Source: Strigamia acuminata (taxonomy: Eukaryota > Arthropoda > Chilopoda > Geophilomorpha > Linotaeniidae). Taken from it: a DNA stretch of 64,000 bases. The stretch is from NCBI GenBank assembly GCA_949358305.1, contig OX442319.1:13206001-13270000 (forward strand). Direction: 5' to 3'. Below the pieces are notes generated by a model. It ran no database searches and was not told the origin of the DNA. It was given only the letters and a program-made list of their open reading frames with translations. Below, piece by piece: positions 22,134 through 64,000 of the stretch (position 1 is the stretch's first letter; each line of letters opens with the position of its first letter). A program made the translations under genes and the position numbers.

Positions 22134-22164
<31 letters not shown>

Positions 22165-24276
22165 TTTTTTAATTATGCACACGTTTGTAATTATATTTAC
22201 TCGTTTCTTACCAGGACGGACCCAACGACGACGGTGCCTTGGACCTATCCCAAAGCACGGGGCATTCCGTGTGGTCATCGAGCCTGCCACAAACGTGAGT
22301 TCCACGCGCTCTTCGGGTCTTGCACGCAACGTCTCACAATTTATTTATTTATTTTTTTTTTTAGAGAAACGGATGGGACGGCGGATGAGATTGTGGGGGG
22401 GGTTGTGGATGAGATCGTGGAGGAGGTGGGGAAGGCGAGGGCGGCGGAAGAGACTGTGTCGGAGACGGAGAAGAAGAAGGCGGTGGAAGAGACTGTGTCG
22501 GGGAAGGAGGTGGAAAAGGAGATGGCGGTGGAAGAGACTGTGTCGGAGACGGAGAAGGAGAAGGCGGTGGAAGAGACTGTGTCGGGGAAGGAGGTGGAAA
22601 AGGAGATGGCGGTGGAAGAGACTGTGTCGGAGACGGAGAAGGAGAAGGCGGTGGAAGAGACTGTGTCGGGGACGGAGAAGGAGAAGGCGGTGGAAGAGAC
22701 TGTGTCGGGGAAGGAGGTGGAAAAGGAGAAGGCGGTGGAAGAGACGGTGGTGGAAGAGACAGTGGAGGAGATGGGAATAGTGTGGCCGGAGATGGAGGTG
22801 GAGTTGGAAAAGGAGAAGGAGACGTGGAAGGAAACGGCGGTGGAAGAGGCAGTGGAGGAGAAGGAAAAGGAGAAGGAGACGGCGACGGCACCGAAGAAGA
22901 GGACGTGTGTGAGGAAAGGGGGTGCGAAAAAGAAACGGAAGACCGTTGAGAAGGTGGAAAAGGAAGTATTCGAGGTAACGTAGTAACTGACCATTTTATT
23001 TTGACAATCAACGTGATCGCGTTCCAATTTGAAATTGAAAAGCGATCACGTTGATTTGACGTAAATTAATAATTCCCGCGCGCGCACTATAATTTAACCT
23101 GCAAATTTAATTTGCCGCGCGCGCATTGAGCGGATTGATCGTATGAATCCGACCCGCGCACAAACTTGGATTCGACGTGCAATATCGTATATTTATTTGC
23201 CCGTCTGTTTGTTCGTTTATTCATTTATTTATTTTTTTTTTTTCTCCAGTCGTTGCCCAGCACATCAGGTTGCACTTGGACGATGCCAAGCGTTGTGACG
23301 GTCCCGTCGTCACCAGACCTGTCACCGCCGCTGTCGCCACCACTTCAACCAACGGCGACATTAGGCAAAATGCCTTTAATGTGCCCCGTCGTGAGGTTGG
23401 AACGGCTGCAATTGCCGATCCTCACACCAATGCCACGTCCTGTCGTGTCGGCGCCGTGCCCGGTTATGTCGACGCCGTGTTTCACCGTGCCACCATCTGC
23501 GCCCATCGCCCCCCCGCCGCCGCAAGAACAGCAACTGGCGCGTGTCATCGCCAAGCCGCGAAGATCCGCGTTGAAGCGGCCCGCATCACCGTCATGGGAA
23601 CCCGCGTCGAAAAGGTCGGAGACTCGAGTCACGCGGCGGTCGACGGAAAAGGTAACCTGTCTGGTCTATTTGTCTTTGATCGTTTGTTCAATCGTTCCTT
23701 CCATTTCTTTCAGATACGAAAGGCATCTGCATCCCAGGGCTCGGTGGTGCCGTCTGGCAGGGCAGGACCGAGTGGGCTTCCGTCCAACCTTCCGTCCAAC
23801 TTTTCGATGGAGTTGGATCGACGGTTCGGAGAATTTCAGGAATGGGTGCTCCGGAAGGTGGGGGAGGTGGAGACGGGGGCGGTGCCAACACGGCAACGAC
23901 GCCAGGGTGGAGGGAAAGGAAAGAAGGGAGAAAAACTCCGGACAGAGGGCGGGAAGTCGTTCTATTGTGCTCTGTGCGCCAAACAACCGGGTAATGAGAA
24001 ACATACATTTGTTTATTTGTTTGTTTATTTTTTGTCTAATTTTTATTTTTTTTTTTATTTTTTTTTTTTTCCTTTCCTCTCCCGCGTACCTTAGGGGTGT
24101 CGAAATACGGGCGTTTTAGCGAGGACGCGTACCGCCATTGGCGCCAACATCACCACCTAGACGCAGTTAAGCGCGAGGATGAAATCTCCAAGAGAGTTAG
24201 AAAGCATCTGCGGGACTATTCGCGTAGACCCGATCTCCTGTTGCCGGTGGGTATTTAATCAATTAGTCGATTCGTT

Positions 24277-31702: not shown

Positions 31703-34023
31703 TCACGGCAATCTACCCACGCCGGCTTCGTGGAGTTGGAAACAATTGCGGTAGCGTGGGCGACATAGGTGGGTCCGGCAGGGAGCGCACCAGAAACTGC
31801 TCTCGTGGCGTTCTTTGTGGACCTCGCGACACACCACGCATCGACAACTTTTCCCCGCGCGCTCCATTCGATGGACGACGGGTCCAGTAGGTAGGGCCGC
31901 GCGCGAGGCCGTGGTTGTCGTCCTCGTCCTCTCCCGAGCCAAGAGTTGAGCGACAAGTGCCCTTCGGAATTGTAATTGCGATCGATCGCCGCGCGCGGAG
32001 GCTGTGACTTCGCGCATGTTGATTCGGGCGTTGACACACACTGCGGGGAATAAATGGAAAACGACGAGTCGAGATTAAGATTGTAACGATAACAATAATG
32101 ATAATAATCAGAGATTGGGGCCTTGATCCCACCTTGATTCAGCTTTTGAAAGAAGAAGTATCGGTGCCAATAACTGGACCGGCGTCCGATGTGGAATGAG
32201 GAGACGAGTCGGTTCAAGACGTCTACCCAATGAAAATTTTCGATGTAGGACAGTGCGGGCGCCGGACATGCAATATCCACGTTCCTGCCACCGATACGAC
32301 GCGAGACACGGCCGGCCGCTGACAGTGGGTCGACGTTCGTACTGAGCAAACTCACGGTGGTTGTGTCTCGCCACGCAGTGAGCACCAACCGACCGTTTTG
32401 TCGTTGTATGAAATCGCCTACAAAAAAAAAAAAAATGAGAGAGATAGATAGAATAAAAATTAATAATTGAATGAATCAAACGCGCGTTCACGTCCGAGCA
32501 AATGCGTTACCTCTCCGGTTGCCTTGATATCGTCTGAGTGTCGAAAAATCTGATGGCATCTGGGCCGAATTGGCCCGCAGCGTCCCCACGGCCATGGTGT
32601 TGTGGCGGGTGAAGAGGTGTTCGAATAACACGGCGGACGAAAATCGATTATCGCAGGCGATAGTGTACCCCATGCCGAGATAGTGTCTGGCCACGTATAC
32701 GACGATGCGTCCGAGGACACTACCCGGATACCTAGCAAGTTTGGAGTAAAGCAATCCGAGGTGAAAATAGAAAAGGCGATGAATTGACTCACTCTGGTTC
32801 CGGCTCTTCGTCCGGGTCAAAATACATCTTGGTGCGCTTACCCAAGTGCACCTCGTCGTTCAGCACGTAGCCGGTGCCCGCTTCGCACAACGTGAAAAGT
32901 TCAAATCCCCATTTGATGGGTTTGGCCGGTTGGAAGACCTGGAAGAAATTTGCCGAACGAATGAACAAATGTAGACAACTGGATGAATAAATAAATAAAT
33001 GTACGCACTTTTATCTTTGATCGACCTCGGAAGGCGATCATCGACTCGTCAATGCAGAGCGTCGTCCTTGGTTGCCGACATGCGCGGAAGCGTTTGTTGA
33101 CCAGGTCGGCGAACAAGCGAACTTTCATCGCGCGGTCGTCCTGTTCGCGTTCTTTCAAAAATGACACCCTTTCCGCCGTTGTGCTGCCGCCATCGGGGCC
33201 GCGTGCAGAGCCGGTAACGTGCAACCGTTGGTAGGACGGTTGCGTGCCGTAATGAAGGTACCGCGAAATCTCCTGAAACCTCTTGTGTGTCATGGCTCGC
33301 CCAACGGCCGGTGCACCGAGATCGCCGACGTTGCTGCTCGACCAGTAGTGTCGCAATTCGGGTTGTTTGTTGTAGCCGGCCAAGACGTGGATCCCTAGAT
33401 ATACATAAAACTCATCGAGCGTTAGAGGGCGGACCCGCGCGCGCGCCCTTGTCGCTGTCCCTCTCGGTTGTGGCGGGTGTTGCGATCGAGACGGAAGTCG
33501 GGGCTGTCGCCCGGCGGCCAGCTCGGCTGCCCTTCTGTCGGCCGCGGTGATACACACTCTCAAAACACTGCGTTGTGGTCCGGGTGCTCCAGCGCCACTA
33601 CCGCAAGCCACGGCGACCAACGTTCTTTGTCTAGTTCTCGGACCTCGTGGTCGTTGCATCGAACGCGTCTAAAACGAAAAACATGTATATTATACGAACA
33701 ATCAACCAAAAGCGCGTCTGAGAACCCCCGTGAACGACGTGTGCAACGTGTGCGTCAACTTTTCCCAACACCTGTACTCGCGTTCTTCCCACTTCTTTCT
33801 CCTGCTTCGCCTCTCTCCGAATGGCCCGGTTCGTCGCCGTCACGGTGAAGCGGGCCGCCTCGCCGAAGAGTTCCTCGAAATAGTCGAATTCCGAGCTGGT
33901 AGCCACGCATCGGCCGCGATAGCCGGGTGTTTCGCCGTCGAATCCGACGTCCTGTCGGTACCGCGTCGTCGTGGCGGCCCATACGCGCGTGTCGTTGGGC
34001 GTTTTTGGAAAACCGTCCGTCAT
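31703..34023 (-). CDS. piggyBac-type transposase split by five introns
   Basis: Exons in coding order: 33772-34023, 33009-33668, 32793-32938, 32511-32731, 32133-32417, 31703-32040. Every junction joins in frame with GT...AG introns, giving 633 aa, a normal length for this family. Hallmarks of DDE_Tnp_1_7 are present: RPLTLDEFYVYLGI and HYWSSS, then RFQEISRYLHY; the first catalytic Asp in CIDESMIAFRGRSK (D291), the second in ACDNRFSS (D380), the third in HWVDVLNRL (D492). The residue three positions after the third Asp, Asp in Trichoplusia ni piggyBac, is Asn here. A Cys-rich C-terminal zinc domain (CRCVVCREVHKERHESSFWC) is intact. The family acts by cut-and-paste at TTAA. Five introns in an otherwise intact gene suggest a domesticated gene or a large intron-bearing element; terminal repeats were not identified. 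An acceptor-like TTGCCTAG before the ATG suggests another exon upstream. Confidence 0.88.
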
Positions 34024-44464: not shown

Positions 44465-44468
44465 ATAT
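44465..44468. other. Target-site duplication ATAT, left
   Basis: ATAT before the LTR and again at 53475-53478; the empty site in copy 1 (near 3173-3176) has a single copy. Confidence 0.88.
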
Positions 44469-44961
44469 TGTTACGCGGTAGAGCCGTACCGTGTATCGGC
44501 TGGCTCTGCTCGCTCTGTTTAGGCATTTAATGCAATGAATTCTCACTAGACGGCGCTGTGCACCTAATTAGATGCACAGACCGTTCAACTTAGTTGATAG
44601 GGGGAATAGGAGTTTACTTAGTGAGCTGATTAAGCCAGAGAGCTCAGATCTCTTTTGATTCTCAAACTGTTACCTTCACCTACTACTGCCAGCCGGTTGA
44701 CGGTCAGGCAGGACTAGGTTTCCTGAATTGAATTGAATAAACAACAGCATCATCCTTATTTGATTTGAATGAACCATTTATGTGTTTTAGGTTTAATAAA
44801 TGAACAAATGTAATAAGAGCTGATGACCGAACATTTACATTAGTAAATGTCCGACTTTGAACAATAAAGCCAACAGGCATTTTACATATAAAACCCTGTG
44901 TCATTCTTGATTGAATTCATGTCACGTAGGACTAAATCAATCCCCATTTAGCCACGTAACA
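44469..44961 (+). repeat. 5' LTR of the Gypsy element (493 bp)
   Basis: TG...CA ends, with the short terminal inverted repeat TGTTACG/CGTAACA. Same length and sequence by eye as the 3' LTR, indicating a young insertion. Confidence 0.95.
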
Positions 44962-44963
44962 AC

Positions 44964-44981
44964 TGGTGGAGATGCGGTCTC
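44964..44981 (+). other. Putative primer binding site
   Basis: TGGTGGAGATGCGGTCTC starts two bases after the LTR. TGG is the complement of a tRNA CCA end. I could not name the tRNA with confidence. Confidence 0.5.
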
Positions 44982-45417
44982 GATTGTAGCCCGTTTAGAT
45001 TTAAAATCCCATTAAAATTGGATTAAAATTGCCAAAATAATTTAATAAAAATCTAGAAATAAAAACTTGAAAATTGCTGATTTTATAGCAATTATCTTGA
45101 ATGACTCAGAGTTGGTAAAAACAAGTGAAGTCACAGCTTGAATATTTAATGTCATTGTGTGAAATAATTTGCATTTTGGAAATGAAAATAGAGTTTAATT
45201 GTTTATTAGGGATTAATAAATTGATTTACAATTGTTATATTTAGAATAAATAAAATATATAGTGTATAAATACTAATTTTGATATTTATTTACAGGAAAT
45301 TTTGTGAATTTATGGGAATTGAAAAAATTGTTTTGAAATGTTATTGATGGATTATTTTCTTTGTAATTTTGAGTGTAATATTTATGTATTATATGCTAAT
45401 AACACTTTAAGTTTTCA

Positions 45418-45420
45418 GGT
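45418..45420 (+). promoter_or_regulatory. Candidate splice donor in the Gypsy leader
   Basis: TTTTCAG/GTAATG, a good donor, 88 bases before the gag start. Joined to the acceptor at 51188-51189 it would remove gag and pol and leave the third ORF as the first frame. Confidence 0.45.
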
Positions 45421-45506
45421 AATGAATTCGTGTTAGTGTATTCAGTGTTTAGAAAGTGAATCAGTGCTAGTGAAAGTGATAAAAAGCGCAATATAAAGGC
45501 TTTAGT

Positions 45507-46838
45507 GTGGCTAAGCCAATAAAATTGTCGCAGTTTAATACGGATAATCTTCAAGATTTACAAAATTGGGAATTGCCCGAACCGGATTTGAAAAATATCA
45601 CCACTAGAAGAAGTAAAAACGCTAAATCCGAATCTGACACTGAACCTCAGAAGGAAGATAAAGAAGTCCGATCTCAACCTCAATCAATATTACAGAAATT
45701 GGATTTTGCTACTCCAGCAATAAAATTAATTCCACAAAAAGGTTTAGAAGAAATAATAAAGACATTTACACCAGTAAAAACTAAACCAGTTCCAACCTCA
45801 ATTAAACCAAATTTTCCGAAAATGACATCACCACAGACTCCAACGGACGTATTGACCGACTTATTGAAGAGTTTGGTAGTGCAGAAGCGACCTGTTGTCA
45901 CTTATGATACAGAAAAGGGCAACATCGACCAATGGCTTGTGGCATATGAAGCTACAATAGAAACAGATGATGAGAGAGTAAAACATCTAGCATTAGCCTT
46001 AAAGACTGATGGATTGGCATGGTTTGTGGAACAACTAAAGAAGAATCCGACATGGAAATGGACGGATTGGAAACCACAGATCGAGAAAAAATTTAGAAGA
46101 AGCCAAGAAAATGTTTACAATACTCTCCACTTCATGAAACACAAAGAGGGTACAGCAGATGCCTTCATGAAGAAAGTCTTGGCCGAATGTGCGTTTATTC
46201 TACCAGAAATGACTGAAACTCAGAAAATAAATTATGTTTACCAAGGTTTGAAGCCTGCAATGCAGAAGATGATGATAACAGTATTTCCATCGACGTTAGA
46301 AGAAATGGAACAGAGACTTAAATTGTATGAAAGTCACAAAACAGAAGAACCAGCGGATCTACTGCTCACAATGTTCAAAAAAGTTGTAGATGAAAAGGTG
46401 AACCCTACGACAACAGGTATACTGTCTGGAACAGGGGGATCCCCAGTAAGCTACGCCGAGTTATTAGCTGAAAATATTAAATTAAAACAGCAAAAGCTCG
46501 TTAGTGAGTCAGTAGAGCCACAACAATCGGTTCCATTATTCATACAAGGCGAGTGGTATATTCCAGCATCGCAGCGCGGACAGAACTTTAGAGGTAGATA
46601 CAACAGAGGTAGACAGCGGTCAAATAGCAGTCCGACAACAACGCGTTCATGTGGATGTTGGCATCGTTATGGTTGTGAACATAACACATCAGCGCCACAG
46701 GAGCAACAATCTCAAGAAAATAGAGGGAACCCAAACAACAGAAGGTGGTTTAAGAAGAAAAGGACACAAGGGGGCGGTAAAACGAACCCTAATCCTAAGC
46801 AGAACCCACAACAAGGTCAACAAGAAGAGGAAAACTAG
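45507..46838 (+). CDS. gag: Gypsy Gag polyprotein
   Basis: 443 aa reading from the GTG at 45507; the frame has no upstream ATG before a stop at 45480, and the next in-frame Met is about 100 codons on. The context TTTAGTGTGGCT is the same as TTTAGTATGGCT at the gag start of the other element, which suggests the normal start is ATG and that GTG is a point change, or that non-AUG initiation is used. Residues about 130-270 form a retrotransposon-gag-like helical region (IDQWLVAYEATIETDDERVK, WKPQIEKKFRRSQENVYNT). The C-terminus is Arg/Gly/Asn/Gln-rich with a non-canonical Cys/His cluster (CGCWHRYGCEH) starting at residue 382 rather than a standard CCHC knuckle. It packages the genomic RNA in a cytoplasmic particle. 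Confidence 0.85.
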   Translation: MAKPIKLSQFNTDNLQDLQNWELPEPDLKNITTRRSKNAKSESDTEPQKEDKEVRSQPQSILQKLDFATPAIKLIPQKGLEEIIKTFTPVKTKPVPTSIKPNFPKMTSPQTPTDVLTDLLKSLVVQKRPVVTYDTEKGNIDQWLVAYEATIETDDERVKHLALALKTDGLAWFVEQLKKNPTWKWTDWKPQIEKKFRRSQENVYNTLHFMKHKEGTADAFMKKVLAECAFILPEMTETQKINYVYQGLKPAMQKMMITVFPSTLEEMEQRLKLYESHKTEEPADLLLTMFKKVVDEKVNPTTTGILSGTGGSPVSYAELLAENIKLKQQKLVSESVEPQQSVPLFIQGEWYIPASQRGQNFRGRYNRGRQRSNSSPTTTRSCGCWHRYGCEHNTSAPQEQQSQENRGNPNNRRWFKKKRTQGGGKTNPNPKQNPQQGQQEEEN

Positions 46839-49800
46839 TGGGTCGGCCACAAGGAAGATGTCACCATCAACAAGGAAGATGTTGTCATCCAAAGAAGAAA
46901 AGAAAGAATAGAAGAGAGAAGATAATCGTAGTCAAAATGAACATTTCAGAATCTCTATTGGAAATTCCAGTAATAGTGAACAACATGGAAGTCAAGGCAG
47001 TTATGGACACTGGAGGAAAACGCAATGTTATCAGCGAAGAGCTTGCTGAAGCTTTACAGTTGAAGTACCCGCCAAGCCCAAATATACGATTACAAGGGGT
47101 AAGCGGAGAACTTGTGACTCCAATAGGAAAAGCCAAGATGAACATTACAATTGGTGAATTAACATACAGGATCGAGGTCCTGATTGTTAAAGGATTTCAT
47201 TATGAACTACTGCTAAGTGACCCATTCATGCTGTTCGCGAAGTGTGTGTTAGACTACGACAAACAAAAAATCTTTGTGGGCCGAACTAGTGGAAAGGAAG
47301 TGTCATTTCCAATGAATAAAACTTTTGTTGATCAGAATTATGTTGCGAGGGTAATGAAGAACATCACAATTCCACCAATGCATGAATGCATTGTTCCCAT
47401 CTATTTGAATAAAGCAATAACATTAGACATGTTTGTGCAACCATTACATAATGTTACTGATAGATTTGCTGTGATAGGTTGTAAAACTTTAACAGATTTC
47501 AAGAACGGCAAAGGCATCATTCGAGTGGCTAACCCAACCAAGAAGACAGTCTTTCTGAAGGAGAAGTCAGCAATCGCAAAAGCTTATTATGTGGTTGATG
47601 TTGGGGTGTTTGATGAAAAACAGGTACACTGTTTTGACTTTGACTCCTCAATAGCAAAAGACAAAATGAATAAAGACCAACAAGAGCAAATGCGACAACT
47701 TCTTCAAAAGAATCAAGACAGATTTGCTGTTTCTGACAAGGATTTGGGACGAGTTCAAGTGTATAAGCATAAAATCGATACTGGAGACCATGAACCAATA
47801 CATTTGCAACCGTATCGTCGTTCTATGAAGGAAAAAGAAGTCGAAGCTGAGGAAACAAAGAAATTGCTTGATATGGGAGTGATAAGGGAATCAGAAAGTC
47901 CCTGGAGCGCGCCTGTATTGCTAATAAAGAAAAGAGATGGTAAGTGGAGATTTTGTGTCGACTGGAGACGTTTGAATGCGATAACAAAGAAAATGGTGTA
48001 CCCATTGCCAAGAATAGATGACACTTTAGATCAGCTGGCAGGTGCACAGTTCTTCTCCATGATGGACCTTATTCAAGGATATTATCAAGTCGAAATAGAT
48101 GAACAAGATCGCGAAAAAACAGCATTTACCACTTCAAGCGGACATTTTGAGTTTAACGTCCTAGGAATGGGATTATGCAATAGTCCAGCAGCTTTTCAAA
48201 AGTTAATGAATAAAGTTTTAGGCAACCTCCTAGGCAAAGTCTGTATAGCGTACATTGACGACCTTATCATTTTCTCTAAAACATTCGATCAGCATTTGAA
48301 AGATCTAGACAACGTTTTCGACAAGCTTAGACAATCTAACTTAAAGGTGAAGTTGAGCAAGTGCACATTTGGGACGAACACCATCAAGTATTTAGGACAT
48401 GTCGTGGACTCTGAGGGTATATCACCAGACCCAAGGAATCTGGAATCCGTCGCGAAGTTTCCAGTTCCTACTAACCTCAAACTTCTTCGAGGATTCATAG
48501 GGCTCTGTTCGTATTACAGGAAGTTCATTCCAGGTTTTGCGGACATATCCAAGCCCTTAGTCAATTTGACGAAGAAGGACGAGAAATTCGATTGGGGCCC
48601 ACCTCATGACAAGGCCTTTAAAACATTAAGGACCGCCCTTATCACCGTGCCAGTGCTTGCGCACCCTAATTTTGAAGAACCCTTCATGGTATCGACTGAC
48701 GCGAGCGCATATGGTCTTGGAGCAGTGTTGAAACAGAAGATAAACAAACAAGAACATGTGATAGCTTATGCCAGCAGACTTCTCAGCCAAGCAGAACAGA
48801 ATTACACAGCCACAGAAAGGGAATGTCTGGCTATTCTGTTTGGAATTGAAAAGTACCGACCTTATTTGTATGGTAAGAAGTTCCAGATAATTACAGACCA
48901 TTCGGCACTCCAATGGCTAAAATCAGTCAAAAACCCCAATGGCAGACTAGCTAGATGGAGCCTACAGCTAGTAGACTTTGATTTCGATGTGATCTACAAG
49001 AGCGGAAAAGCGCACAAAGATGCCGACGCCTTGAGTAGAATTCCAGAAGATTTAAGCGAGGAAGAAAACGAAATAGTTCCCTCACTTTTACTCGAACAGC
49101 TCGACCTTCCTGCTGAGCAGCGTAAGGACAAGAAGCTACTGGAATTGATCACCGCAATGAATCAAGTAGAGCAACTTCCGAAGAAGAGAAGACGTCCTCT
49201 AAAGCAGTTCGTTCTTCTCGACAATGTGTTGTTTAGGAAGAAAAATTCTTTGAATTCCCTAGACACGGAAGTAAATCTGTTATATGTTCCGCAGCATTTG
49301 AAAACTGCAGTTCTTGAAGAAATGCATGACGGACTGACGGGTGCTCACTTGGGCCTAAACAAAACGTGGAAGAGAATGAGAACAAGATTCTTCTGGCCCC
49401 GGATATATAAAGACGTTAGAAATTACGTACTTTCTTGTCCACATTGCGCGAGCTCGAAATCAATGACAACAGCGCCAAAAGGTTTAATGCAGCCGTGGTC
49501 TACAATATCTAAGCCTTTCGAGAGGATTGGAATCGACACACTGGGAAGTTTTCCGACCTCCGAAAAGGGCAACAAGTATGTTTTCGTAATGACAGATTAT
49601 TTGTCGCGGACAGTGATTGCTAGAGCAGCTCCAGCATCAACAGCGTTGGAAGCAGCTAGAACCTTGCTTTATGAGTTAATGTTGAAGGAAGGCAGTCCGA
49701 GAGAAATCCTGAGCGATAGAGGCACAGAATACAGAAACAAAATGGTGGAAGAAGTATCAAATATGTTTAAAGCCCTACACAAAACCACTTCAGGGTACCA

Positions 49801-50782
49801 TCCAAGGACCAATGGCCTTACAGAAAGATTTAATGCGACGTTTGCAAAAATGTTGCAGATTTATGTTGATAAGGACCAGAGGGACTGGGATGATTTTTTG
49901 CCATTTTTGCTTTTCTCATATAATACCGGTGTGCATGAAACGACAGGATATACACCTTATTATCTTTTGAAAGGATATGAAGTTGATTTGAACGTGGACG
50001 TAAACCTCAACTTACCTCAAAAAGAATTTACCTTGCGAACCTCAAAATTCATCAGAGAAGCTAGGAAGATAGCAAATGAAAGGTTGGAATGGCAAGGAGA
50101 AAAAAGCAGAAAAAGATTCGATCAAGGCCGAGTCCATGTGGAATTTGACCCAGGAGAATTAGTATATCTCAAAACACCCAATAGAAAAGTTGGGTTAAGT
50201 GAAAAACTCCTACCACAGTTCTCAGGCCCATACGAAATAGTAAGAAGAACCGCGCCAAATGACTACGAAATTAGAAGTTCAAATGGAAAGAAAACAGATA
50301 TTGTTAATATTGAACGATTAAAACCGTATAAACCCAGAGAAGAAATTCCAGCGGAGATATTAGAAGAATTGACAGCTAAAAAAGTCACATTTGCTGATGA
50401 AACTGCAACACAGAGTGAAAAACAACAAGAAATTGAAGAAAACACGTCAATTTCGCCAATTCCGATCGCTAAAGAACGATTTATTAGCGATGACGATCAA
50501 ATTTCGTTAAAAACACTCTTTGAACCTGAAGAAAATACAACAAAAGTGTCAAATTTCCCAATTCCAAGCGAAAAAGAGCGATTAAAAGCGCTCTATGGAC
50601 CGAAAGAAATTATGGAAAGATGGCAAAACGAAGACGAACGGAAAAACAAAGAAAATCAATTGCGAAAACCGCCGACAGGTGTCGCTGACGCAGTCGATGA
50701 CGCGTCGCCGCCTGAAATCGAGAGTTTCCGGTCACGTCGCCTTCGCAAACAGGCTCGTCGTGACTACAGTGGATTGTGTTAA
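46799..50782 (+). CDS. pol: Gypsy Pol polyprotein (protease, RT, RNase H, integrase)
   Basis: The frame opens at 46799 and overlaps the end of gag by 40 bases in the -1 frame, with no usable ATG near, so -1 frameshifting is likely; GGAAAAC just before the gag stop is a candidate site. Numbering from 46838 there are 1314 codons. Aspartic protease DTG is at 57-59. Reverse transcriptase has SPWSAPVLLIKKRDGKWRFC and the YIDD box at 472-475. RNase H begins at STDASAYGLGAVL (D621) and has TDHSAL. Integrase has the HHCC zinc finger, then D900 (IGIDTLG), D960 (LSDRGTEY) and E996 (TERFN), a DD35E core. A GPY/F-type module follows (QFSGPYEIVRR). The last 150 residues are charged and low-complexity; no chromodomain was recognised. 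All catalytic residues are present, so this copy is probably active. Confidence 0.95.
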   Translation, partial: AEPTTRSTRRGKLVGRPQGRCHHQQGRCCHPKKKRKNRREKIIVVKMNISESLLEIPVIVNNMEVKAVMDTGGKRNVISEELAEALQLKYPPSPNIRLQGVSGELVTPIGKAKMNITIGELTYRIEVLIVKGFHYELLLSDPFMLFAKCVLDYDKQKIFVGRTSGKEVSFPMNKTFVDQNYVARVMKNITIPPMHECIVPIYLNKAITLDMFVQPLHNVTDRFAVIGCKTLTDFKNGKGIIRVANPTKKTVFLKEKSAIAKAYYVVDVGVFDEKQVHCFDFDSSIAKDKMNKDQQEQMRQLLQKNQDRFAVSDKDLGRVQVYKHKIDTGDHEPIHLQPYRRSMKEKEVEAEETKKLLDMGVIRESESPWSAPVLLIKKRDGKWRFCVDWRRLNAITKKMVYPLPRIDDTLDQLAGAQFFSMMDLIQGYYQVEIDEQDREKTAFTTSSGHFEFNVLGMGLCNSPAAFQKLMNKVLGNLLGKVCIAYIDDLIIFSKTFDQHLKDLDNVFDKLRQSNLKVKLSKCTFGTNTIKYLGHVVDSEGISPDPRNLESVAKFPVPTNLKLLRGFIGLCSYYRKFIPGFADISKPLVNLTKKDEKFDWGPPHDKAFKTLRTALITVPVLAHPNFEEPFMVSTDASAYGLGAVLKQKINKQEHVIAYASRLLSQAEQNYTATERECLAILFGIEKYRPYLYGKKFQIITDHSALQWLKSVKNPNGRLARWSLQLVDFDFDVIYKSGKAHKDADALSRIPEDLSEEENEIVPSLLLEQLDLPAEQRKDKKLLELITAMNQVEQLPKKRRRPLKQFVLLDNVLFRKKNSLNSLDTEVNLLYVPQHLKTAVLEEMHDGLTGAHLGLNKTWKRMRTRFFWPRIYKDVRNYVLSCPHCASSKSMTTAPKGLMQPWSTISKPFERIGIDTLGSFPTSEKGNKYVFVMTDYLSRTVIARAAPASTALEAARTLLYELMLKEGSPREILSDRGTEYRNKMVEEVSNMFKALHKTTSGYHPRTNGLTERFNATFAKMLQIYVDKDQRDWDDFLPFLLFSYNTGVHETTGYTPYYLLKGYEVDLNVDVNLNLPQKEFTLRTSKFIREARKIANERLEWQGEKSRKRFDQGRVHVEFDPGELVYLKTPNRKVGLSEKLLPQFSGPYEIVRRTAPNDYEIRSSNGKKTDIVNIERLKPYKPREEIPAEILEELTAKKVTFADETATQSEKQQEIEENTSISPIPIAKERFISDDDQISLKTLFEPEENTTKVSNFPIPSEKERLKALYGPKEIMERWQNEDERKNKENQLRKPPTGVADAVDDASPPEIESFRSRRLRKQARRDYSGLC

Positions 50783-51187
50783 GGTTTTCTGAGACGAACC
50801 AGGTTTACTGTGTGACTCAAAGAAACCTAAAGCATTAATAACAGCAGCAGTTGATTTGTGTGTGATTCCGTAAGTGAAAGGAGTGGATTTTGAACGAATT
50901 TGGCGAATAAATAGCTTAAAAACGAAACGAATCTATCGCGAATTTTGTGAAAAATAACATCGCGAAATGGAAAATTAGGCTTAAATAATTGTGTTAAAAC
51001 TTCGAAATGAAATTTTAGTGTGTGCATACATTATCAAGTGACTAATTAGTTGAAGAATTGTTAAATTTAGTGTAAATTAGTGCAACATGAGATGTTAAAT
51101 GAAATAATGAATGGAAATTGGAATAATTTTGTGAAAATTTTGAATTAATGAATTAATTTTTTTTATTTTCTTTTCAAACAATATATT

Positions 51188-51189
51188 AG
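51188..51189 (+). promoter_or_regulatory. Candidate splice acceptor for the third ORF
   Basis: A pyrimidine-rich stretch (TTTTTTTTATTTTCTTTTC) followed by ATATATTAG/G lies eight bases before the ATG of the third ORF. Confidence 0.5.
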
Positions 51190-51196
51190 GATCCGA

Positions 51197-52570
51197 ATGG
51201 ACGAAATGGCAAGCAAATTTGATCGGATGGATGTGCGTAGTGACAGTGACAGCGATGCGGATTCAGTTTGCTCGATGCAAGTGGGCGATCTTTTGGAACG
51301 TCAACTTAAGAAAGGCGATGACTTGGAAATTTATTTAGCAAATAAGCCGAGCACAAGTAAAACTTTGGACGAATTGGTTAACTGCCCACGCCCGTTTACA
51401 GAAGGAAAACAAAAGGCGGAGGAAGATAAAAAGAAATATGCAGGACCATTAACAAAGGGTGAAGAAGGCTTATTGCGTCGTCGTCGTAAGAATCGACAAT
51501 TGAAACGAGATAAGAAAGCACAAAAGAAGAAAGTGTTTGACGAGCAATCGAAAAGAATCCGGGAAGAAGAAATGCGTCACACCGTTGATCGAAACAAACG
51601 CCGATTAAATGATTTGCGAATGGAGCACCGGAATATGGTCAACGCCATTAGAGCCAGGAAATTAAAAGGAGTGATGGGATTGCCCGACTATCAGTTGTGG
51701 AGAACAGGGGCGAATGCTTTGCTGATCCAGGAGGCGAAGATAAGAAAAAATATTTTAAAAGCCATCGCCCTAGCGAGAAGAGAGTCCTTCCAGGACCCTA
51801 GTGTAGTATTTCCTACTCCTATACGGGTATACCGTGTGGAGTTGGACGCTGCACGACAGGTCCAGGCTCTCGGACTTGCATTAGACTATAGTAATGCGCC
51901 AAAATATGACTTAGCATTCGACGCCGTAGGTTGTCCGCCGATTAAAGTCATGAACTATCAGATGGCAGCATTAGGCGATCTAACGCCGGGACGACAGAGC
52001 TGGACGTATGACAGCGTCGTTGATCACTACCTCCAACTGTTAGAAGAGCGATATCCCATATTGGCACCAATTCAATCTGAGTGGGTCTTCAAAATGGTGG
52101 ACCCAGCTAAACGAAAGGAAGCGATCTATTGGCTAATGAAGAGACTTCCAAGTGCTCAAAAGAAGATTTGGGTGTTTCCAGTTCCTATTGAAGAGCATTG
52201 GCAGCTTTTCATAGTGGATTGGCGGAAAAAGCCAACCCAATACGTGCTTTACGACCCAAGCGGACCAATAGAGCGCACATATCCAAAGTGGGAATCTTTA
52301 AGGTACTCGTTGATGGATGCAGGAGTAAAGTTTCCAAACAAATTCATACGTTGGGACCCGCCACGTATGCACCAATTGGATAATGACAGCTGTGGCCCAA
52401 CCATACTCTACTTCACTAGAAGATATGTTGAAGACCGTGACTTAATGCAGTTTGGGGAGCCATGTGAGTTACGCTTACGATTTGTGTATGAGATTGCAAA
52501 CCGTGAAATTCTCCCATTCGAATTGATCAAGGAAGAGGATAAGAAAGATCAAGCGGAAGGAGGAGAGTGA
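51197..52570 (+). CDS. Third ORF of the Gypsy element: Ulp1/C48-type cysteine peptidase
   Basis: 457 aa from ATG to TGA. The N-terminal 60 residues are acidic and Ser-rich. Residues about 70-150 are strongly basic and coiled-coil-like (RRRRKNRQLKRDKKAQKKK) and could be a nuclear signal or RNA-binding region. The C-terminal 200 residues follow the clan CE/C48 plan: PGRQSWTYDSVVDHYLQLL at the place of the family's LND-x-x-I-N-x-Y segment, VPIEEHWQLFIVDW with His334, YVLYDPSG with Asp353, and HQLDNDSCGP with Gln393 and Cys399. Spacings of H to D (19) and D to C (46) fit Ulp1-like enzymes, which cleave SUMO or related modifiers; the viral relative is adenain. There is no signal peptide or membrane segment, so this is not an env. 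The frame is intact although it lies outside gag-pol, which argues it is useful to the element. Confidence 0.88.
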   Translation: MDEMASKFDRMDVRSDSDSDADSVCSMQVGDLLERQLKKGDDLEIYLANKPSTSKTLDELVNCPRPFTEGKQKAEEDKKKYAGPLTKGEEGLLRRRRKNRQLKRDKKAQKKKVFDEQSKRIREEEMRHTVDRNKRRLNDLRMEHRNMVNAIRARKLKGVMGLPDYQLWRTGANALLIQEAKIRKNILKAIALARRESFQDPSVVFPTPIRVYRVELDAARQVQALGLALDYSNAPKYDLAFDAVGCPPIKVMNYQMAALGDLTPGRQSWTYDSVVDHYLQLLEERYPILAPIQSEWVFKMVDPAKRKEAIYWLMKRLPSAQKKIWVFPVPIEEHWQLFIVDWRKKPTQYVLYDPSGPIERTYPKWESLRYSLMDAGVKFPNKFIRWDPPRMHQLDNDSCGPTILYFTRRYVEDRDLMQFGEPCELRLRFVYEIANREILPFELIKEEDKKDQAEGGE

Positions 52571-52981
52571 AGTGAACTTTAACTTCTTTAAGTGAATAAG
52601 TGTAAAATCAACACGAACTTTGAACATTTTTTTTTGTGTGTGTTTTTTTTTTATTTTATAGAAAATTGAAAACTGAAAAAAAGTAATATAAAACAAAAAA
52701 ACCAAAAAGTGTTATTATTGATGAAAAGTGTTAATTTTATTTAATTTTAAACTTTGAAAATTGTTTCCAATGTAAAAGTGTAATAAAAAGTGACTATGAC
52801 ATTTATAAACATTGAAAAGGGTATCATATTATATTTTTGTAAAAATAAGGATGATGAAAAGAGATTCTCAAAAATTGTAAAATTGTGTTTATGATTTGAA
52901 AATTTTTTTATGTAAAAGGAGATGCGTTAGTTAGAACAATTCATTGTTTTTCGAGAGACCGAAAAAATTAAAGGGGGGGGC
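52571..52981 (+). other. 3' untranslated region and polypurine tract of the Gypsy element
   Basis: AT-rich. Ends in AAATTAAAGGGGGGGG (polypurine tract, 52970-52980) one base before the 3' LTR. Confidence 0.8.
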
Positions 52982-53474
52982 TGTTACGCGGTAGAGCCGT
53001 ACCGTGTATCGGCTGGCTCTGCTCGCTCTGTTTAGGCATTTAATGCAATGAATTCTCACTAGACGGCGCTGTGCACCTAATTAGATGCACAGACCGTTCA
53101 ACTTAGTTGATAGGGGGAATAGGAGTTTACTTAGTGAGCTGATTAAGCCAGAGAGCTCAGATCTCTTTTGATTCTCAAACTGTTACCTTCACCTACTACT
53201 GCCAGCCGGTTGACGGTCAGGCAGGACTAGGTTTCCTGAATTGAATTGAATAAACAACAGCATCATCCTTATTTGATTTGAATGAACCATTTATGTGTTT
53301 TAGGTTTAATAAATGAACAAATGTAATAAGAGCTGATGACCGAACATTTACATTAGTAAATGTCCGACTTTGAACAATAAAGCCAACAGGCATTTTACAT
53401 ATAAAACCCTGTGTCATTCTTGATTGAATTCATGTCACGTAGGACTAAATCAATCCCCATTTAGCCACGTAACA
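52982..53474 (+). repeat. 3' LTR of the Gypsy element (493 bp)
   Basis: Begins TGTTACGCGG and ends CACGTAACA, followed by the ATAT duplication (53475-53478) and resumption of backbone sequence matching copy 1 from about 3177. Confidence 0.95.
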
Positions 53475-54158
53475 ATATATTTAATCCTCGGGAGATGCTG
53501 TGCGACCTATACGCCGACCCCAAGCTCGTGATTTTGCTGCGGATTTCGTGGATCTGTCCGGGCTTTTGGGCGCCGGACAAAAAAAAAGTTCGATTGGAAA
53601 TGGGTCCCCGGACGAAGAAAAGAGAAAGGAGTAGACACGCGCGCGTGGGACACCCTGTGGAATAAAAAATACCCATGGAAGACAATGAAAGTTTAATCCC
53701 ACAATCGTCGAATCGGTTTCGTGGTTTGCGCTCCAACTGTTAATTAGATTATCGTCGTTGGGACCGATTGAAACAAATGTTTTGTGAAAAATTTGCAGTT
53801 TCAGATTTTAACTTTATCTATCTCCCAGACTTCTTGCCCCATCGCTGTCTACGCTGTCTACGCGAGCCAGCCAGACGACAATAATATGAGTCCTGAGGTC
53901 CGAGAGCGAGTCTGCATGTCCCAGGGGACGGCATGCGAGTAGCCACTCGTGCGCCCCTTGCCATCGCCAGACATGCTTTCGCCAAAGTATGAACCGTGAC
54001 AACTATATTAAAACAATGTTTATTCGATCGAAAGAATCTATACAACAATTATGAGTACACTTGTCAATTTATTTATCTATTTATTTGATAGAATCTTGGT
54101 TGTGGTCACTGTCGGTCACATCGTAACCATCGTCTTCAGGGCCCATCACCCCTTCTCC

Positions 54159-54840: not shown

Positions 54841-55933
54841 GGTCTCTGAAAAAGAAAAAAACGCGATAGATAAAATCAAAAGAAAAAGAAAAAAAAAAAC
54901 AAAAAAAAAAACCAAATGGGTTATTAAATTGAGCTTCATTTTCTGTTAGCAACAATAACCAAACAAACAAATTTTTTCTGCGCGCGCTTACGGATACAAT
55001 ACGTGCATAATTGGGCGGGAATAATTGACAAATGATACCACAAAACACTTGGCTCATTCGCTCGTTCACTCGCTCGCTCACTCACGTTTAACGAAACGAA
55101 ACTAAACACGCAACTGCAAACGCAAACTGTCTTTGCCCGGCTCTAGCCCGATTTAAAAATGGCGACAATTGAAACGAAGCTTCGTGCTTCACTGCAACGT
55201 GGTGTCGACGAGAGCGAGGGCGAGAGCGAGAGTGAGAGCGAGAGAAAGCGAGTGAGTGGGTGAGTAAGTAAGTAATCAAGTGGAGCATGCGTGGACTGGC
55301 GACGATATTTCCGCAGTCGTTCAATTTGGCGTGGGTTTACAACTCCGCTTATTTGGTCGCTGATCGAGTCGGCACGCACTTTAAACATGTCGACGGCAAA
55401 CAATACACGCGGGAAAAAAAATAACGCTAAGTTGTACGTAAGAAGAGTCTTCATTATGAATAAATGCAAAGGACCGAACCCCGAATATTCGAGTGTCCAC
55501 ACAACCTATCGTCCACCGGGTCTCGGTGTCCGGGTAGAAAGAGGGAGGGGACGTACGCGCGCGTACCGGACATTGCCACTCGGAACAAAAAATGTGCATA
55601 ATAGGGAAAACGATCAAAGTTTAATTTCCTGATCTTGGAGTCGGTTCCGCGATTTGTGTTCCGACCAATAATTAGATTATCCTCGCAGCGACCTACTGGA
55701 ACAAAGATTTTGTGGAAAATCCGCCGTTTTATATATTTTTTTTTCTTTTCCGGTTGTCTCGCACCATGTAATCGACGCGAGTTTTTGAGATTGCGCTCGA
55801 CCGGACTTTGCGAACATTCTCAGAGCGAGCGTTCCGGGCCCTCGCGGATATCCGGAGGGTTCCGGTGTGCGGCATCGGTTTGATTGCGCTCGTTTTATTC
55901 TGCGTTGTCACTGGCCAGACGCGAATGGTCGGA
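54841..55933. repeat. Copy 2 equivalent of 4533-5631
   Basis: Same simple repeats and composite-repeat segment as copy 1. No gene is seen. Confidence 0.55.
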
Positions 55934-55937
55934 GGGT
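55934..55937. other. Empty insertion site of the gag-only element
   Basis: A single GGGT in uninterrupted sequence GGTCGGAGGGTCGCGTTCGC. This is the pre-insertion state of 5632-14951. Confidence 0.92.
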
Positions 55938-58336
55938 CGCGTTCGCGACAAATAGGGGCAGCTGGTGTCGACGGACGAGCGCCGGCAGCCCCGACACATT
56001 GTTTCAAATAAAGCTCCTGTCGAGTTGATTCGATTCGATTCGTATCGTGTTAATTTATCTCTGCGATCTACGCGGTGGAAACAATGCCCTGCTCTTCTAC
56101 CCCGTATTGCGCGCCTCATCGCGCATTAGATCGCATTTAAACGCGCGTACAATTAAGGGTGACGCGATCACGCCGCTAAATCGACGCACACTTTACTCAC
56201 GGATGCGCACCGGCACTGAAACGTCCAGAAACAAGCTTCTACACGTTTCTACGGCGTCGGCATTGTTTATTTATTTGTTTATTCGTTTACTTATTTATTA
56301 ATTCATCTATTCAGACCTTGTGGTGTGCAAATTGGGGAAAGGTCCCTCATTTTTAGCGTTACGGCGGCCTGTGTATTGGTCCCGTGTTCGCAATTCTGAC
56401 TTGAACGCAGCCAACCGACCGAGACCCGACGTCAAATTCGATAGCAACGCGTCGGAATGCAAATAACTGTCGACGAAAATTAAAAGTATAATTGTTTAAT
56501 AAAAGGAAACTGACGTAATGTTGAAACGCTAAAAAATACGTAAAATTAAGATTCAAATTCGGGTTCGATCCAGGTCAGATTAAGTCAGTCAGATCAGATC
56601 CACGAACTCTCGAGGCGCGACATGTTTATCGCTTAAAGATACCTGGCGATCGACGATGGGCGGACGACTGGAGTTCGATTTCCCGACCATGGGATCAGTT
56701 TCGCGGTTTGTGCTCCATTGTTTAATGAGATTATCTTCGTTGGGGTCGATCCCAACAAAAAAATTGAAAATAAATTACATTTTACATTTTAGAACTGGCT
56801 TCCGGACGCCTCGCACCATCCCCGGCGACGCAGTTGTTGTCGTTGGATTCGACCGACTCTGCGGACATTTTCAAACCCAGACCAGACACACTTGTTTCGA
56901 ACAAGGAGCCATCAAGCACTGAGCGCTTAAACGGACCTGTTTCGTCCTTTTTGTGTCTCAATACCCTCGGGGTGTTCGTGGTGGAGTAGATGTCATTTAT
57001 GCGTTGTAAAAAGTGTTTTCTCTATTGCATCGGCATACGGGCATACGGGGCAGCTGGTGACGGCAGCCCCCAATAAATTTGTTCCAAAAATAAGTTCCCG
57101 TCGAGTCGTGTCGATTTCTCTTTCTCTCTCTCTCTGGTCCGCCGTGATTGCGCTTCATTGCGCTAAATTGCCGCCAGAACGCGCTACCGTCGCATCAGGC
57201 GAACATTTTTGGCGTCCATTAAAGGACGCGGATTACGGGTCACGTGAACGGGCGTCAAATCCCGCGCGCAAACGATCGTGTCGAGTTAAATAAAAGAATA
57301 GAAATCGGTGACAAGTGTTGCGCGAAACGAGGCCACGAACGCCTCTATTGGTTTACGATTTTATTTTCACCCCATTGTACTCGACGCGCCAGCGTAGGAG
57401 AAGTGAGTTTTCGTCACTACGTTCGATGGATTTACAAACAAACAGACAAACAAACAAACAAACGGTTTCAGACCGTTCCGGGTCCTCGCGGATATCCGGA
57501 GGGTTCCGGTGGTGGATTTGTCTCATCACTTTTAATCTATCCTGTGTTGTCATCGGCCAAACCAGTGCCGGTTTGCACGGTACAAAGGGTCGTGCAAAGG
57601 GTCGCATTCGCGGCAAATAGGGGCAGCTGGTGTCGACGGACGAGCGCCGGCAGCCCCGACACATTGTTCCAAAAAAAGCTCCTGTCGGGTTGATTCGATT
57701 CGATTCGATTCGACTCGTGTTAATTTATCCCTGCGACCCGCCCCCGTAAATGTCGTAATACGCGGTGGAAACGATGCCCGCTCTTCTACCCCGCATTGCG
57801 CGCCTCGTCGCGCACTAGGCCGCGTTCAAACGCGCGTACTATTAAGGGTGACGCGATCTCGCCGGTAAGTCGACATGCGCTTTACTCACGAATGCGCGTC
57901 GGCACCGAAACGTTCGGAAACATGCTTCCGCAGTGTCGGCATTGTTCATTTATTAAATTATTTGTTTATTCATTTATTTAAACTCCGTGGTTGATTGATG
58001 GGCGTGTGGATTTCGCGATTTGCGTTGGCCCTGTGTTCACAGTTTTGATTGATTTGAACGCAGCCAATCGAACGAGACCCGACATCAATCTCGATAGCGA
58101 CGCGTCGGAACGCAAAGAACTGCTCACCGAGAATTGAAAGTGTAATTGTAAAACAAATAATCAACAAATAATCAATGTGGAACAATCATCGTGTAATATT
58201 TTATTAATAAATTGTATTTTGAAAAAAAAACAACAACAACAACAACAACAACAACTAATTTATCTTTCGATGCGAGTAAATTACAAACTTTGTCTTTGAG
58301 TTTTAGTCACCCCAAAAGTTGAATCAAATTTTCAAT
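55938..58336. repeat. Composite repeat array, copy 2
   Basis: Duplicate of 14952-17344, with hairpins near 55958, 57049 and 57621. Small indels in TTCGATTCGATT and CAA runs distinguish it from copy 1. Confidence 0.6.
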
Positions 58337-61188: not shown

Positions 61189-64000
61189 ATGGAAAATGAA
61201 AAATTAGAAACCGAGGAGGGGTCAACCGAAGTTGCAACCACGATGACGGTGAGTGGAAAAATTGTCTCACGATTAACAATATTATTATTATTATTATTGA
61301 TGAAAAATAGATAAACAAACACATAAATAAATAAATATTTCTGCCTAATTCGCGAAATAAAAATAGAAAATAATTTATTTATTTCCGCGCGGACATTAAA
61401 AATTGATTCATATCACGTGTAAAAATTTCATTTTTTTAAATTTAATTTTTTTGTCCCATTTATGCGCGATCTCTTATCTGTGCCAATTTTAAGCAATGAC
61501 AAACGGTCCCGATTCTCCAACCATTTAACAGCATCGAATGCCAATTGCAAAGTAGTGATCAAATTTTTCTTCCGACAATTAAATCTGAGATCCGTGGAGA
61601 GGGGCCACGTCGGGATAGGAATAAATTCTAATATCCGCGTGGAAATGGGCACGGTCCGGGGTACGGACCCGCTATTTTCCATTTTTCTAAACTTTCTTTG
61701 TTTTATTTTATTTTATTTATTTATTTTTTAAACGCTGATTTATTCATACACATTCGTATCGTTCCAGGACACGGAACCGCACGTGGACGAGAGGTTGGTC
61801 ACTGTGGAAGCGTCGACGGCGGTGAGTGAAAGAATTGGCCCATAATCAAAATTAATTTTGCGAGGATAAGCTTTCGTTGCTGGTTCTGGCGCGATCGACG
61901 CAATTGTGACCCATTCTCCCATGTTTGTGCGCGCGAAAATACGCGAACACGCGCGTCCAATTTTTTGTCGTTTGAGGCCCCGCGTCTCGATTTGTTTTAC
62001 GTGTCCGCTCCCTTCCCTCCCCCCCCATCCCCCCCCCTTTTTTTTTTTCTTTTAATTGATTTTTCTTTTTCTTTTTCTATTTTTATTCATTTTTTTATTT
62101 TTATTTTTATTTTTTGTTTTTATTTTTATTTTTTTATTTATTATATTTGCTCGTTTTTAATCAGGCCACAATGGACACATCTCGACGACGTCCAGTGGAG
62201 TCGATTCTGGACGACTCGCAATCGCAACCAACAGAGCCGATGCTGGAGGAATCCCAAGACACGGAATTCAGCGAGTCTCAACCCTCCGAGTCCAGGGTGG
62301 TGTTGTACCACGAAAGGCTGGTGGAGAGGGTGGTGGAGAGGGTGGTGGAGAGGCGGGTGGATAGGCTGATAGAGAGGCGGGCAATAATGGAGGCCATCGT
62401 TGGAGATGCAGGGACGGTGAGTGAATTAGAATTAGAAAAATAGAAATTATACACCGTATATCTCCAAATAGTGCATCCACACGCTATCTGGGGACAAATT
62501 TTCTCATGTGTACGATCAGAGGCCCGCGCGCGTTATTCGTGAACTAAAATTGTCCCACCGAAGACACGTGTACAAATCGAGGATACCGTTTATCTGTAAA
62601 TAGCGCATCCGTGCGCTATTTAAAAATAAATGGTCCCGCGCGCTATTAAAGACCCGCAGAGTAATCACAGATATACTGTATACAGTATATGCATTTTTTT
62701 TTCTGTTTTGTTTCTTTTTCTTTTCAATCCGTTTGAATATTCATATTTGTTTGTTTCCTGTCAGGCCGCGTCCGAAGTCATGTCGACCGTCTTGTTTCGA
62801 GTCGCACAATGCATCGCGTCTTCCGGGGCACCGGACCATGAACCCGCAACTGCAACGGTAGGCTAAAGAATCAAAGTCGAGTTTACAAGAGTGTTCTTGA
62901 CTCTCATGTTTCCGACACGATCGGCGCAGACGAAATGTGAAAACGACCAACCAACGCGCGTCATCTCGAGTTAGGCGCGCACATCAAATGCGTGCTCTTT
63001 ACCGACACATTTAACGTCAGGGTCTATTTAAATTTAATTCATTTATTGGTTAATTTTTTCCTTTTCTTTTTTTTTACTACAAGTTAGTCATTTTAATTGT
63101 GGGCGTCTTTTTGGCCCCCTTTTTTTATTTTTATTTATTTATTTATTTATTTATTTATTTTTTAATTATGCACACGTTTGTAATTATATTTACTCGTTTC
63201 TTACCAGGACGGACCCAACGACGACGGTGCCTTGGACCTATCCCAAAGCACGGGGCATTCCGTGTGGTCATCGAGCCTGCCACAAACGTGAGTTCCACGC
63301 GCTCTTCGGGTCTTGCACGCAACGTCTCACAATTTATTTATTTATTTTTTTTTTTAGAGAAACGGATGGGACGGCGGATGAGATTGTGGGGGGGGTTGTG
63401 GATGAGATCGTGGAGGAGGTGGGGAAGGCGAGGGCGGCGGAAGAGACTGTGTCGGAGACGGAGAAGAAGAAGGCGGTGGAAGAGACTGTGTCGGGGAAGG
63501 AGGTGGAAAAGGAGATGGCGGTGGAAGAGACTGTGTCGGAGACGGAGAAGGAGAAGGCGGTGGAAGAGACTGTGTCGGGGACGGAGAAGGAGAAGGCGGT
63601 GGAAGAGACTGTGTCGGGGAAGGAGGTGGAAAAGGAGATGGCGGTGGAAGAGACTGTGTCGGAGACGGAGAAGGAGAAGGCGGTGGAAGAGACTGTGTCG
63701 GGGACGGAGAAGGAGAAGGCGGTGGAAGAGACTGTGTCGGGGAAGGAGGTGGAAAAGGAGAAGGCGGTGGAAGAGACGGTGGTGGAAGAGACAGTGGAGG
63801 AGATGGGAATAGTGTGGCCGGAGATGGAGGTGGAGTTGGAAAAGGAGAAGGAGACGTGGAAGGAAACGGCGGTGGAAGAGGCAGTGGAGGAGAAGGAAAA
63901 GGAGAAGGAGACGGCGACGGCACCGAAGAAGAGGACGTGTGTGAGGAAAGGGGGTGCGAAAAAGAAACGGAAGACCGTTGAGAAGGTGGAAAAGGAAGTA
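61189..64000 (+). CDS. Gene F, copy 2: first six exons, cut by the window end
   Basis: Exons 61189-61248, 61768-61821, 62165-62416, 62765-62857, 63208-63287 and 63358 to beyond 64000. All splice sites match copy 1. Exon 3 has an in-frame 12-base gain (an extra VERV-type unit in VERVVERVVERR), exon 4 has lost one Ser codon, and exon 6 has a different number and order of AVEETVS units. Every length change is a multiple of three, which supports the reading frame. The zinc-finger exons lie outside the window. Confidence 0.75.
63434..63797 (+). repeat. Coding minisatellite in gene F exon 6, copy 2
   Basis: Same 39/45-base units as 22441-22767 but one unit longer, with an extra GGGACGGAG-type unit in the middle. 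Confidence 0.8.

Follow-up and report, generated by a model that had tools for sequence, protein, structure and literature searches.

The stretch of DNA analyzed here (hereafter the window) comprises 64,000 nucleotides of the Strigamia acuminata contig OX442319.1, and carries at positions 44469–53474 a Ty3/Gypsy element with LTRs, gag, pol, and an intact third open reading frame (ORF3), all on the forward strand. Its 5′ LTR (44469–44961, TGTTACG...CGTAACA) and 3′ LTR (52982–53474) are identical over their 493 bases, with 0 mismatches, indicating a recent insertion and thus a young element, and the flanking bases read as a target-site duplication, ATAT, at 44465–44468 on the left and 53475–53478 on the right. 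Across 19 loci, among them that of the window copy, 17 LTR ends (CCACGTAACA) were identified, and each is followed by NTAT (further matches to CGTAACA were treated as internal and not counted), which suggests that insertion favors particular targets and duplicates 4 bases. A polypurine tract can be read in the sequence before the 3′ LTR (52970–52981). A piecewise search of the window, in which pol was compared by protein only, found no other repeat of the element beyond a single 33-base segment from the 3′ untranslated region, and a tRNA scan of the window found none. The presence of a reverse transcriptase and LTRs, together with the lack of any inverted repeat of at least 40 bases between 42 and 58 kb, rules out a Ginger1-type DNA transposon.

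The gag frame (45507–46838, 443 codons) opens with GTG and has its first ATG at codon 106; the part before that codon (45507–45824) is open without an ATG, and a non-AUG start or a spliced leader is possible. Its match to the Pfam family Ty3_capsid is weak (E 8.7e-4, 19.2 bits, against a curated cut-off of 29.1). Abutting the gag stop codon TAG lies GGAAAAC (46829–46835), a motif of a type that we take to be a frameshift site and which, read in the sequence with pol in the −1 frame, is a candidate −1 frameshift site into pol. The pol frame (46838–50782) has Pfam matches to an aspartic protease, a reverse transcriptase, RNase H, and an integrase at residues 43–118, 363–522, 611–714, and 817–989, respectively, which is the domain order of Ty3/Gypsy elements. 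Elsewhere in the window we noted a 501-codon frame with a CCHC zinc knuckle (10959–12464), gag-like by eye and apparently belonging to another retroelement, a minus-strand frame resembling by eye a fragment of a piggyBac transposase (32901–33659), two near-duplicate low-complexity frames 41 kb apart (22100–23027 and 63099–63923), and direct repeats ∼1.65 kb apart that are 85–95% alike (55827–57928).

ORF3 follows pol at 51197–52570, starting with ATG and running without stops for 457 amino acids, just as the initial annotation had described it for the position normally occupied by env. Seven nucleotides before its ATG, a T-rich tract ending in ATATTAG provides a candidate 3′ splice site (51188–51189), picked out by eye and unscored. 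Of 19 loci, 17 show the ORF3 start, and in these a T-rich tract and an AG are likewise visible by eye within ∼60 bases upstream of it, easily recognized in some families but faint in others (for example, L031 and L040). The N-terminal part of the protein (residues 1–244, 51197–51928) has no family match, and a C48-type peptidase domain was delineated at residues 245–445 (51929–52531) by profile, PDB-chain, and Pfam comparisons. Within this domain lie the catalytic His, H334 (52196–52198, followed by W335), the catalytic Asp, D353 (52253–52255), Q393 (52373–52375), presumably the Gln of the oxyanion hole, the nucleophile C399 (52391–52393), and W269 (52001–52003), which aligns with the tryptophan of the SENP1 WLND motif.

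The assignment of this domain draws on several comparisons of differing sensitivity. A profile built from 16 aligned ORF3 proteins, when compared with PDB chains, returned SENP1 (E 9e-12), SENP5 (2e-8), SENP2 (6e-7), SENP3 (3e-5), Ulp1 (9e-5), and XopD (1e-3), with 18 chains at E ≤ 1 in total, and phmmer with the window domain returned SENP1 at E 7e-5 and 14 SENP/Ulp1 chains at E ≤ 0.02, with one unrelated chain at 0.35. The Pfam C48 family was matched at E ≤ 1 by 14 of the 16 ORF3 proteins (best 1.2e-4), the window protein not being among the 14. The full-length window protein has no Pfam match at E ≤ 1, and its domain alone scores 14.7 bits against Pfam C48, under the cut-off of 20.7, such that the case for the domain rests on the other comparisons. 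A search of NCBIfam gave one weak unrelated name, and none of 5.8 billion proteins matched ORF3 at E ≤ 0.01 (7997 candidates scored). The four residues stand at the positions given in the initial annotation, in His-Asp-Gln-Cys order and with C48-like spacing. When residues 201–445 were shuffled 200,000 times, the spaced motif set arose in 0.02% and 0.08% of cases for two patterns, both of which were written after seeing the sequence. Taken at the level of sequence comparison, we regard the predicted C48-type cysteine peptidase domain in the C-terminal half of ORF3 as confirmed.

H334, D353, Q393, C399, W269, and W335 are invariant in 16 of 16 aligned ORF3 proteins, and within the element's own family all 38 copies compared retain W269 and the catalytic residues. 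The equivalents of the two tryptophans presumably line the tunnel that accepts a Gly-Gly tail, and their conservation suggests a ubiquitin-like substrate. The Asp of the SENP1 WLND motif is a SUMO contact; the matching residue, D272, is present in only 7 of the 16 proteins, and the substrate need thus not be SUMO. Near the N-terminus, M4, K7, and F8 are invariant in the 16 aligned proteins, of which only L036 lacks the first Met. Two single-sequence structure models are of low quality (mean pLDDT 44.9 and 39.6); residues 87–157 are basic and, in a single-sequence model with a pLDDT of 46–92 over this block, helical, and the basic stretch at residues 92–112 could point to a role in the nucleus or with RNA.

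ORF3 is widespread in this genome (237.5 Mb in 157 contigs), with at least 94 matches belonging to several families (93 of 510 candidates scored; two broken copies are counted twice among the 94). By hand count, 79 of the 94 matches listed have no stop inside the matched stretch, and 45 of the 94 share at least 91% identity with the window ORF3, 37 of these 45 being full length and without stops. We fetched 20 stretches with divergent copies, all of which contain ORF3, with pol sequence upstream in 19 (fragmentary in some); the remaining stretch, L035, has a gag match only and no pol upstream of ORF3. The alignment of 16 proteins consists of the window protein and 15 of these 20, leaving out L021, L038, and L039 as broken or partial and L023 and L024 as near-duplicates, and it falls into eight clusters at 80% identity, the lowest identity to the window protein being 32%. 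Among the best 120 of 1946 pol relatives, those named are mostly from a pseudoscorpion, with others from a moth, a tick, Daphnia, a frog, rotifers, and a coral, and ORF3 was found in none of these 120. No relatives were found among viral contigs searched with ORF3, pol, and the pol alignment, in a genome-contig collection searched with the pol alignment, or in a plasmid search.

The genome contains 29 other C48 matches, 13 of which were fetched. None of the 13 was found by ORF3 itself at E ≤ 10, and the ORF3 profile found 7 of the 13 weakly (best 1.6e-7, in this small set), such that close kinship of ORF3 to the genome's other C48 genes is rejected for the 13 of 29 that were fetched. Several of these other matches are multicopy, with six equal-score matches in frames of 1075 codons and two more in frames of 1828 codons, which plausibly represent other C48-bearing transposons; by eye, L053 resembles a C48 domain with a zinc-finger (PHD-like) stretch behind it.

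Across the copies, ORF3 is shown to be under strong purifying selection. In 38 own-family copies of equal length (from 40 fetched out of the 45 listed matches), pN/pS is ∼0.08 in both halves of ORF3, and 0.07 without three stop-bearing copies. Among the 20 divergent pairs that we computed, 8 have dS < 0.5, the others being at or near saturation, and dN/dS is 0.05–0.10 in 7 of these 8 (for example, 0.05 at dS 0.41 and 0.06 at dS 0.44), with the eighth, L026/L027, at 0.39 with a dS of 0.017. We note that the copies were recruited through protein matches, which favors well-kept copies; given the size of the effect, a neutral origin of the low pN/pS is nevertheless implausible.

ORF3 has also been lost repeatedly. 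Searching with the integrase end of pol gave at least 113 scored places (from 3468 candidates), of which 52 belong to the own family and 61 to other families, a further 24 rows being second pieces of the same copies. A listed ORF3 lies within 4 kb downstream of the listed pol in 44 of the 52 own-family places and 19 of the 61 others, leaving 50 of 113 listed pol places with no listed ORF3 downstream; conversely, among the matches listed, 31 ORF3 matches have no pol match. The pol copies lacking a listed ORF3 comprise L074–L093 and 40 further copies, and 10 of the 50, hand-picked rather than random, were inspected. ORF3 is deleted in all 10, with a remnant ranging from none to ∼220 bases of its 3′ end. 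Numbered from the ORF3 start, and with junctions taken from the ends of blastn alignments that are good to ∼20 bases, the deletion runs from approximately −53 to +1305 in two own-family copies, from +3 to +1138 in L088, from −112 to +1381 in L089, and from −192 to +1221 in L092 and L093; L086 and L087 have one junction in common, and the deletions in L090 and L091 (approximately −73 to +1254 and −104 to +1236) are possibly one event. This likely amounts to six or seven distinct deletions, some of which were copied on. The pol frame of the 10 copies is open for 1310–1360 codons in nine and for 862 in the tenth, and ORF3-less copies with long open pol frames have multiplied.

In addition to being lost, ORF3 segments have been exchanged between elements. 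When 10 loci were compared in 45 pairs, identity in pol correlated with identity in ORF3 (r of 0.89 and 0.90, one value per half), and the two genes have thus been inherited together on the whole. In the pair L027/L040, pol dS is 0.07–0.30 in each of six bins and ORF3 dS is saturated, with nucleotide identity falling from 92–99% to 62–75% near the end of pol and no recovery in the available stretch. In L032/L034, pol dS is 0.25–0.42, ORF3 is again saturated, and identity falls from 82–98% to 58–70% before returning to 93% just after ORF3. The control pair L032/L033 shows no such step (87–98% through pol and 88–94% in ORF3), and L034/L036 forms the reverse mosaic, with the pol tail and spacer 59–89% alike and ORF3 95–97% alike. 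The simplest cause of such mosaic elements would be template switching during reverse transcription, with homogenization of pol by conversion as the alternative.

Strong conservation, exchange between elements, and repeated loss together make an intracellular benefit of ORF3 to the element probable. On balance, we consider it somewhat more probable than not that ORF3 is a trans-acting, intracellular, isopeptidase-like accessory enzyme of a Ty3/Gypsy clade. The C48 (Ulp1/SENP-type) cysteine peptidase, placed behind a basic, helical N-terminal part, would constitute such an intracellular enzyme, probably translated from a spliced RNA and probably acting in trans to detach a ubiquitin-like modifier from a protein of the host or of the element, with the nucleus, or the route to it, as the likely site of action and a silencing factor, as proposed in the initial annotation, as one option among several for its target. 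A pN/pS of 0.08 combined with repeated deletion in copies that are still multiplying is the pattern expected if the ORF3 product acts in trans; an equally valid reading of the deletion derivatives is that an element can move within one germ line without ORF3.

A more specific version, which we put forward tentatively and would not expect to be the eventual answer, is that a diffusible deSUMOylase-like enzyme takes the place of env and blunts host silencing. Retrotransposon silencing in animals uses SUMO, and an enzyme working in trans would be a shared good, its ORF3 segments being traded by recombination while ORF3-deleted cheaters multiply and live on the enzyme of intact relatives. Such a SUMO-type peptidase, carried by a transposon and strongly selected, would offer a direct way into the study of how elements respond to silencing. 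Whatever the substrate, the presence in one genome of families with and without ORF3, and of similar pol genes with different ORF3s, makes the role testable by comparison.

An alternative that we judge unlikely is that the C48 fold has been kept for binding rather than catalysis, making ORF3 a regulatory protein acting, for example, in RNA export like CERV of Cer1. In favor of this reading, dN/dS and pN/pS show the N-terminal half to be under as much constraint as the domain, and Cer1 is described as having an accessory protein that is nuclear and whose mRNA is spliced (PMC10309623). Binding alone, however, would not require all four catalytic residues to be invariant, as they are in the 16 aligned proteins and in the 38 own-family copies.

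Slightly less favored again, and likewise doubtful, is an adenain-like particle-maturation protease that cuts the element's Gag or another structural protein. Adenain and poxvirus I7 are related viral proteases with a role in particle maturation, and the window domain does have a weak match to the I7 family (C57, E 0.22), as the ORF3 profile has to the monkeypox protein MPXVgp068 (E 0.72), which we take to be an I7-type protease. The same profile, however, places the SENPs far above this sole viral protein (E ∼0.7), with adenain absent from the 18 PDB chains at E ≤ 1. The processing of Gag, suggested in the initial annotation, is further weakened because pol already encodes an aspartic protease and because the ORF3-less copies with long open pol frames have multiplied.

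It is very improbable that ORF3 serves an env-like function between cells. Its position, the candidate splicing of its RNA, the exchange of its segment, and its repeated loss all have known counterparts in env; against this, the protein shows a peptidase profile instead, contains five cysteines and one N-glycosylation motif, and, judged by hydropathy only, has no long hydrophobic stretch, the highest 19-residue mean being 0.72. With no membrane-spanning segment by this measure, both an env protein and an env-bearing errantivirus were rejected as candidates. A functionless host gene fragment captured by one copy is hardly credible, and single-copy capture with decay elsewhere, which the initial annotation had set against its own proposal, is ruled out by the at least 94 matches, the several families, and the pN/pS of 0.08.

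The intracellular accessory enzyme that we favor can be compared with several known systems. ORF3 resembles the SENP/Ulp1 (C48) peptidases in its His-Asp-Gln-Cys order, in the HW that includes the catalytic His, and in the Trp in the N-terminal part of the domain, and its alignment reaches the end of the SENP1 catalytic domain. It differs from them in its low identity, in having SCGP in place of the DCG of SENP1, in not conserving the Asp of WLND, and in being encoded by an LTR element with an N-terminal part of its own. C48 peptidases on mobile elements are themselves not new, as Ulp1/C48 domains are described in the available text on Ginger1, Mutator-type, Crypton, NeSL, and Utopia elements (PMC2836005, PMC4640811, PMC3212892); those are DNA transposons, tyrosine-recombinase, or non-LTR elements, whereas the peptidase described here is a separate ORF following pol in an LTR element.

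Enzymes in the env position likewise have precedent. According to the available text, the ORF3s of bdelloid LTR retrotransposons encode a GDSL esterase or a DEDDy exonuclease, and resemble the present case in being enzymes in this position that are shared among retroelements and missing from the earliest branches; the enzymes are different, and the term Ulp1 is absent from the main text (PMC5408684). Insect errantiviruses with env-F and Cer1 with CERV share with our element a further ORF besides gag and pol (PMC12992720, PMC10309623); in the portions available, env-F is a membrane fusion protein, unlike ORF3 (PMC12992720), and CERV is made from a spliced mRNA, is nuclear, and is described as lacking obvious homology beyond nematodes (PMC10309623). 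A screen of plant LTR elements lists 15 unusual domains, with peptidase, C48, Ulp, and SUMO absent from its main text (PMC9289625), and for insect LTR elements the available text proposes RNA helicases as silencing suppressors (PMC6338049). The combination of a C48 peptidase with an LTR-element ORF3 was not found in our limited literature search, including the accessible parts of PMC7264820, PMC12992720, PMC2774666, PMC10175614, PMC8220671, and PMC11963269. The initial proposal that the third ORF of this Ty3/Gypsy element encodes a C48-type domain is upheld by the profile match to SENP1, and selection on it is likewise supported. Even leaving counter-defense aside, ORF3 adds one more enzyme to the enzymatic ORF3s of LTR elements: C48 peptidases in transposons and enzymatic ORF3s are both known, and what is new, within the literature searched, is the two combined.
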